Made by a program: the position numbers and the translations under genes
DNA from: Desulfocurvibacter africanus subsp. africanus DSM 2603
Lineage (GTDB): Bacteria; Desulfobacterota; Desulfovibrionia; Desulfovibrionales; Desulfovibrionaceae
Assembly (NCBI RefSeq): GCF_000422545.1
Contig: NZ_AULZ01000021.1
Span: 1-64,000, forward strand
Direction: 5' to 3'
Length of the DNA stretch: 64,000 nucleotides
Notes under the pieces: generated by a model
Databases searched by the model: none
What the model saw: the letters and a program-made list of their open reading frames with translations, nothing else
Told to the model about the DNA's origin: nothing
Shown: positions 29,017 to 30,123 of the stretch, piece by piece
Position numbering within the stretch: position 1 is the stretch's first letter
Layout: each line of letters starts with the position of its first letter

Positions 29017-29295
29017 CTATTCCATGCCTATCGAAAACAGCCGCTCCAGATCATGCTTGGAATAGGCCTTGAAGGCGATGAGCGTCTCCGAGTCGGTGAT
29101 GCCTTCTATCTTGAGGAACCTGCCCGTGACGATTTCCGCCAGAGCTTCGTTGTGCGGTACGCGCAGGATGGCCACCAGGTCGAAACGGCCTCCCACGGAG
29201 TAGACTTCGCTGACGCCCGGTATCTCCACGAGCTGCGTGGCGATCTCGTTGATCAGGTCAGGCTTGACGGTCATGAGCACGATTGCGTTCACCAT
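29017..29295 (-). CDS. Stand-alone AsnC/Lrp ligand-binding domain protein
   Basis: A 92-aa protein consisting only of the regulatory (RAM/SAM) domain of Lrp/AsnC proteins: MVNAIVLMTVKPDLINEIA, then VYSVGGRFDLVAILRV, and SETLIAFKAYSKHDLE at the end. It has no helix-turn-helix. Stand-alone RAM proteins may bind amino acids or modulate full-length Lrp partners. GGAGG with 8-nt spacing fixes the ATG; a much longer in-frame reading upstream is antisense to msrA and not real. Confidence 0.85.
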   Translation of the reverse strand: MVNAIVLMTVKPDLINEIATQLVEIPGVSEVYSVGGRFDLVAILRVPHNEALAEIVTGRFLKIEGITDSETLIAFKAYSKHDLERLFSIGME

Positions 29296-29409
29296 GGCTT
29301 TACCTCCGCCGGGATAATAGCTCAAAGTCGTTTTTCGGTCCAGGCAGCGGCGATTGGGGCTTGCCTGTTTCGCTGGGGTGGCTAGCATGGAGGCAAGGAG
29401 GTTTGGGCC

Positions 29410-30123
29410 ATGAACATGAAACAAAGCACAATGGCCGAAGCCGGGGTGTGGACGCCGGATATTCCGCCTCTGGACCGCATGATCCCTGCGGGACTCAAGA
29501 TCGCTACCTTCGCCATGGGCTGATTTTGGGGGCCGGACTCCCGGTTCGGGAGCATCGAGGGAATCTGGCGCACGCGTGTGGGCTACGCCGGCGGCAGCAC
29601 TCCGGACCCAACCTACAGGCGCATCGGCGATCATAGCGAGACGCTGCAGATCGAGTACGATCCGCAGACCATCGATTATGCCGAACTGCTGCGGCTGTTC
29701 TGGGAGGGGCACGAACCCTCGCGGCCGGCCTGGTCCCGGCAATACGCCTCGGTCATCTTCTGGGTTGACGAGGAGGAACGGCGACTGGCCGAGGAGAGCC
29801 TGCGCGAGTGGAATGCGCGTCGGGGCGGGGTGTACACGCGGGTGGAGCGGCTGGAAGAGTTCTACCGCGCCGAGGATTATCATCAAAAGTACTATCTGCG
29901 TGGGGCCACGGAAGTCATGCTCGACTTTACGGCCATTTATCCGGCCCAGATGGGCCAACGGGCCTTCGCCGACTCGCCCGCCGCGGCACGGGTCAATGGC
30001 TACCTGGGCGGCTATGGCGGGCCGGAACGGCTTGCGCGCGATCTGACTCTGCTGGGTCTGTCTCCGCGCGGGGAACGGTATCTCAGAAGGGTCGTGGAGC
30101 GCAGCGGAGGACTCTGGCGCTGA
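29410..30123 (+). CDS. msrA: Selenocysteine-containing peptide methionine (S)-S-oxide reductase MsrA
   Basis: Reduces Met-S-sulfoxide in proteins. Read from the ATG behind AAGGAGG (29395-29401), the frame meets one TGA at 29521-29523, exactly where MsrA has its catalytic Cys: the context is AMG-U-FWG against the canonical GCFWG. Beyond it the frame runs on with clear MsrA blocks: VGYAGG, DHSETLQIEYDP and FYRAEDYHQKYYL. A hairpin suited to a bacterial SECIS follows the TGA. The whole 237-residue product (Sec at 38) has no Cys, so there is no resolving Cys and reduction must come from an external thiol. SelA/SelB are not in the window. Without Sec insertion the product would be a 37-residue peptide, so a pseudogene is the alternative, but conservation on both sides argues against it. 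Confidence 0.88.
29521..29552 (+). promoter_or_regulatory. In-frame TGA (Sec codon) with SECIS-like hairpin
   Basis: TGA at 29521-29523 is followed after 14 nt by a stem CTCCC (29538-29542) / GGGAG (29548-29552) with loop GGTTC; a C-G pair can close the loop to three bases. The apical loop has G in its first positions and lies about 20 nt past the TGA, as in bacterial SECIS elements read by SelB. The element lies within msrA. Confidence 0.75.

Follow-up and report, generated by a model that had tools for sequence, protein, structure and literature searches.

There is little doubt, in our view, that the gene shown here, on the forward strand of Desulfocurvibacter africanus subsp. africanus DSM 2603, encodes a selenocysteine (Sec)-containing methionine-S-sulfoxide reductase A (MsrA) of the 1-Cys type, a predicted enzyme of the same kind as the MsrA of Clostridium oremlandii OhILAs (CoMsrA). 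The coordinates of its features (Table 1) are positions of the window, that is, the whole stretch of 64,000 nucleotides that was analysed.

Table 1. Features of the Sec-MsrA locus, in window coordinates
Feature	Position	Strand	Description
Shine-Dalgarno sequence AAGGAGG	29395-29401	+	8 nt 5′ of the ATG; sequence as read, assignment inferred
Sec-MsrA coding sequence	29410-30123	+	237 residues, Sec38; final TGA (30121-30123) taken as stop
In-frame TGA, codon 38	29521-29523	+	Read as catalytic selenocysteine (GUFWG); TGA at this codon in 72 of 75 genes
Bacterial SECIS-type hairpin	29538-29552	+	6 bp stem, CUCCCG (29538-29543) with CGGGAG (29547-29552); GUU loop (29544-29546)
C-terminal helical domain, starting around residue 165	29902-30120	+	AlphaFold helices 167-231; full-length match to CoMsrA; boundary approximate

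The reading frame, its in-frame TGA and the decoding machinery

The TGA of codon 38 is the sole internal stop of the frame and falls in the motif GUFWG, at the position of the catalytic Cys of MsrA; the protein contains no Cys at all. The Pfam family PMSR (PF01625) covers residues 32-164 (E 1.2e-39, 136.5 bits against a cut-off of 23.7), and with Sec entered as Cys the MsrA model TIGR00401 scores 122.4 bits against a cut-off of 108.1. The final TGA was taken as the stop on the basis of the relatives, in which homology runs out near query residue 218-238. A first-pass annotation made from the letters alone had described a strong ribosome binding site, a single TGA at the catalytic position, MsrA homology continuing past it and a Cys-free product, and on all these points it is borne out. 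Residues 29-181 also gave a weak match (38.2 bits, cut-off 275) to NCBIfam NF041383, a VPGUxxT thioredoxin-like selenoprotein of type 2, so that this family may include an MsrA-like part.

Relatives were pooled from a sample of the order (nine loci), a contig scan (40) and a sample of the phylum (27 new); removal of L091, a Pelagibacteraceae Cys-MsrA below 150 bits, reduced these 76 loci to the 75 genes compared, our own included. The catalytic codon is TGA in 72 of them, TGC in two (L058, Dehalococcoidia, and L083, Sabulibacter ruber, Bacteroidota) and TTG in L084, whose frame is apparently disrupted just past its TGA. L084 remains among the 75 but does not enter the tree or the Cys count; L079, which repeats L025 with identical DNA, was omitted from these two analyses as well. 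Among the 297 genomes of the order sample, 227 had a match at E ≤ 0.001; the best nine, our own included, reach at least 185 bits and every one carries the in-frame TGA, while the next match (107 bits) is a GCFWC enzyme and the catalytic residue is Cys in the 21 lower-scoring loci examined. In the phylum sample (395 genomes) the in-frame TGA was present in all 28 matches at E ≤ 1e-40, our own included, and lies at the catalytic codon in the 27 other genomes. The relatives belong to Desulfobacterota and kin, Nitrospirota, Chloroflexota, Synergistota, Actinomycetota and Planctomycetota, with Bacteroidota for one Cys form. A match of 83 bits with an in-frame TGA in G073 was rejected as a Sec-MsrA, being an ordinary GCFWC Cys-MsrA with its own stop read through.

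If the TGA were a true stop, the locus would be a pseudogene, or would be expressed solely as a fragment. The standard code does yield a 181-aa ORF, from a GTG at 29578 to 30123 in the ORF list, and this is the truncated MsrA that had been foreseen for any annotation treating TGA as a stop. This fragment is devoid of the catalytic motif, though, and the retention of TGA in 72 of 75 genes with protein homology downstream, together with the conservation of synonymous sites in the hairpin described below and the presence of Sec machinery in the genome, makes a true stop extremely improbable. A plain stop followed by a decayed tail, which had been named as one of two findings that would speak against Sec, was not seen in the relatives, whose homology crosses the TGA at 40-54% identity.

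Profile searches of the genome returned selA (620.6 bits), selB (390.4 bits) and selD (333.3 bits), as well as a tRNA-Sec of 86.1 bits, which ARAGORN identifies as tRNA-SeC with anticodon tca. These are the Sec genes that the first-pass annotation had proposed to look for, and a lack of selA, selB and selC, the other finding it had named against Sec, is not what the genome shows. Judged by its gene content, this cell should be able to insert selenocysteine. Reading of the UGA as Cys or Trp, through suppression or a change of code, would find some room in the report that CoMsrA keeps a lower activity when Cys replaces its Sec (PMC4479559, accessible part), so that Cys would be tolerated at this site. 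The tRNA-Sec together with selA, selB and selD, the SECIS-type hairpin that follows the codon, and the use of TGA as the gene's own terminator speak against such a reading, which we regard as scarcely credible.

The PF01625 search of the genome (100% complete, 40 contigs) matched the 29410-30123 gene only, so that it is apparently the only MsrA of the organism; the MsrB family has one match, free of in-frame stops. The selD gene of this genome (L010, C2:245108-246025) has one in-frame TGA inside it, and selenophosphate synthetase is therefore probably a selenoprotein too.

Around the gene, an interspersed palindromic repeat with a 26-base core was found in seven copies with at most one mismatch, all on the + strand in the window (40, 11918, 19782, 27996, 28941, 46267 and 51012), none being expected by chance. 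The pair of copies that immediately precedes the MsrA gene has about 150 bases in common, at 91-93% identity. The divergent gene at 29017-29292 (-) encodes a small protein whose sole domain is the ligand-binding domain of Lrp/AsnC (PF01037, E 5.6e-14).

A putative SECIS hairpin after the catalytic codon

The first-pass annotation had placed a hairpin with a G-rich apical loop at SECIS distance from the TGA. The hairpin and its distance stand, the loop starting 20 nt past the TGA, whereas the loop is not G-rich, G occupying its first position only. According to the accessible part of PMC13188914, bacterial SECIS elements have a loop of 3-9 nt, a stem of 4-16 bp, a spacing of 16-37 nt and an MFE ≤ -7.5, and require a G within the first two loop positions; with a loop of 3 nt, G first, a 6 bp stem, the 20 nt spacing and -9.2 kcal/mol for the segment, the hairpin lies within every one of these limits.

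Free folding of 29515-29575, which had been suggested as a check, turned out to be uninformative: it gave a z of -0.29, 72 of 200 shuffles were equally stable and the structure predicted was a different one. Since this folding is unremarkable, fold energy by itself is no proof, and we rejected it as evidence of a SECIS element. Rfam returned nothing at gathering thresholds across the window. RNAalifold, applied to an alignment of 68 sequences, did not recover the hairpin and gave a weak, unrelated structure (-1.91 kcal/mol), a miss explained by a one-base shift of the stem in some of the sequences. Because of this other structure, the hairpin was tested as a named stem and by folding the segment of each sequence singly, restricted to the segment in which it should lie.

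For our own gene, 212 of 20000 synonymous recodings were as stable as the hairpin segment or better, and in a separate per-sequence run the figure was 1.7%. In each of the 68 distinct TGA genes this segment folds with 5 or more pairs and an energy of -5 kcal/mol or below, and the loop starts 18-20 nt past the TGA. The first or second loop position is a G in 67 of these genes, and in 63 no more than 5% of 1000 synonymous recodings reach the stability of the native segment. Furthermore, hairpin codons 48, 44, 45 and 47 rank 1, 2, 4 and 5 in codon conservation among 121 columns. Serine columns are inflated in this ranking by their two separate codon boxes (rank 3 is column 100, a serine outside the hairpin), and the clean cases of codon bias are Arg45 (CGG in 50 of 54) and Gly47 (GGG in 62 of 68), to be read beside Ser44 (TCC in 48 of 48) and the nearby Gly51, whose GGC, GGA, GGG and GGT codons number 30, 15, 12 and 11.

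The named stem covaries beyond shuffled alignments of the 68 distinct TGA genes on four of five measures, with at most 14 of 500 shuffles reaching the observed value. Paired cells amount to 77.4% (shuffles 72.8, sd 0.6; 0/500 as high), 21 cells are changed on both sides, against 5.2 in shuffles (0/500), the stem scores 0.143 for covariation, against 0.081 (0/500), and further pair types number 11, against 8.3 (14/500). The fifth measure, pairs with a two-sided change, is unremarkable (3 against 2.5 in shuffles; 298/500), and with the 3′ arm shifted by -1 the covariation score is 0.136, nearly equal to 0.143. Support for this putative SECIS element is comparative, coming from the conservation of synonymous sites and from covariation.

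Likeness to CoMsrA, active site and proposed regeneration

Both in sequence and in fold, the best match is CoMsrA (PDB 4LWJ, 4LWK, 4LWL, 4LWM, 4U66 and 4W8C). The AlphaFold model, computed with Sec as Cys from an alignment of 45 of the 48 rows (L079, L084 and L089 left out), has a mean pLDDT of 91.6 and a pTM of 0.87, and in a Foldseek search against the PDB ranks 1-7 are all C. oremlandii MsrA chains (204-207 aligned columns, target TM 0.88-0.90, 43-44% identity), rank 4 being chain A, named MsrA, of an entry whose title refers to a glutaredoxin. The later Cys-MsrA entries, down to rank 25, have a target TM of 0.42-0.81. The ten active-site positions mapped from those published for CoMsrA in the accessible part of PMC4333827 are all kept: Sec38, Phe39, Trp40 and Gly41, and Tyr47, Glu55, Gln89, Tyr90, His137 and Tyr140 of CoMsrA, which correspond to Tyr69, Glu77, Gln111, Tyr112, His158 and Tyr161 here. 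The same partial source reports that CoMsrA is almost inactive without its C-terminal helical domain, and a comparable role of this domain may be expected in our protein.

The two proteins have in common the Sec at GUFWG, the absence of Cys and of any resolving residue, the C-terminal helical domain and the active-site residues. They differ by an identity of 43-44% and by their hosts, a member of the sulfate-reducer phylum and its kin against a member of the Firmicutes. The GCFWC Cys-MsrA, common in the same order (21 loci examined), resemble our protein in the PMSR fold and the catalytic site, and differ in having a catalytic Cys and further Cys. In most of them the C-terminal domain has no counterpart that matches; the identity over the catalytic domain is 35-42% in nearly all of them. 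One relative, L024 (G038:C168:3465-4788), has a Sec-MsrA adjoining a GCFWC Cys-MsrA on the same strand.

By analogy with CoMsrA, the hairpin would direct SelB and tRNA-Sec to insert Sec at the UGA, and the Sec38 selenolate would then attack methionine-S-sulfoxide at its sulfoxide group, within a pocket formed by Phe39, Trp40, Tyr69, Glu77, Gln111, Tyr112, His158 and Tyr161. Methionine would be released and a selenenic acid left on Sec38. A Cys-free protein cannot resolve this state by itself, and the oxidised Sec would depend on an external thiol for its reduction. The most likely donor is the genome's one glutaredoxin-family protein, which has the motif CIHC, and a Sec-Sec dimer may be an intermediate. 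That resolution within the molecule is impossible and an external reductant needed had been anticipated in the first-pass annotation, and this is consistent with the description of CoMsrA in the accessible part of PMC4479559 as an enzyme with a catalytic Sec and no Cys, whose activity exceeds that of its Cys form 20-fold. The same part of that paper gives CoMsrA as efficiently reduced by glutaredoxin and not by thioredoxin, its recycling proceeding either with glutaredoxin directly or after formation of a dimer between two catalytic residues.

The genome encodes one PF00462 glutaredoxin, the CIHC protein, and seven PF00085 thioredoxin-family matches, and a search of these eight for a Sec-glutaredoxin found no in-frame stop. 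The partner of CoMsrA is reportedly a Sec-glutaredoxin, whereas the glutaredoxin of our genome is a Cys form. Regeneration of the same selenoprotein by thioredoxin or small thiols instead is a minority reading that we nevertheless take seriously: thioredoxin-family matches outnumber glutaredoxin seven to one, and the genome search with TIGR01380, the sole glutathione-synthesis model used, found no confident classical glutathione synthetase (22.8 bits, far below the cut-off of 299). Against it stands the behaviour of CoMsrA towards the two reductants, on the strength of which we moderately favour glutaredoxin as the regenerating partner.

A Cys-free Sec-MsrA with glutaredoxin recycling has thus already been described, and the enzyme type is not new. 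The first-pass annotation was right in stating that Sec-MsrA is known in a few organisms: besides CoMsrA (PMC4479559, accessible part), Zhang et al. 2006 (PMC1794560, accessible part) include MsrA in the selenoproteins tabulated for Syntrophobacter fumaroxidans, likewise a deltaproteobacterium, a likeness that comes from the listing and not from sequence, and a 2026 review, in its accessible part, lists Sec-MsrA with a GUFWG/H motif. The weight that had been laid on a Sec-MsrA free of Cys holds as to the fact and not as to its being special, this being the described state of CoMsrA and, within the aligned part, that of 49 of the 68 TGA genes. A literature search, with most subscription papers outside its reach, found no paper on this exact gene.

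Selenocysteine and cysteine forms in the subfamily

Nearly all sampled members of the subfamily appear, from their codons, to be Sec forms, in a sample that is skewed towards such forms because query and cut-offs were taken from one. The two Cys forms, L058 and L083, have the catalytic Cys only. Nine of the 68 Sec-MsrA genes (e.g. L068, L071 and L075) share a Cys at alignment column 205, in the C-terminal domain, which might serve as a resolving residue in those relatives; the 29410-30123 protein lacks it.

In a tree built by a quick method, in which the placement of our own gene is poorly supported, two changes are needed to account for the two Cys rows, and L058 groups with a Sec row with a support of 95. 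L058 (L058:3001-3642) carries TGC, yet it retains a SECIS-like hairpin whose stability (-13.7 kcal/mol), as high as in any of the genes, was reached by none of 1000 recodings, and this intact hairpin in a TGC gene indicates an apparently recent change from Sec to Cys. In L083 the hairpin is lost (-3.0 kcal/mol, with 54% of recodings as stable). These sequences suggest that Sec has been lost to Cys in two cases within the subfamily. The wider proposal, that Sec is the ancestral and default state of the whole 1-Cys MsrA subfamily in several bacterial phyla, that Cys arises by loss with L058 as a fossil step, and that the lineage of our organism depends on its lone MsrA, is one that we advance tentatively, at a little under even confidence.

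For D. africanus, ordinary gene calling would cut the Sec-MsrA short and lose its active site. The gene is a well-supported added case of the CoMsrA kind, which leaves the knowledge of the enzyme mechanism unchanged, and the many Sec and two Cys relatives assembled with it provide material for asking whether Cys forms derive from Sec forms.
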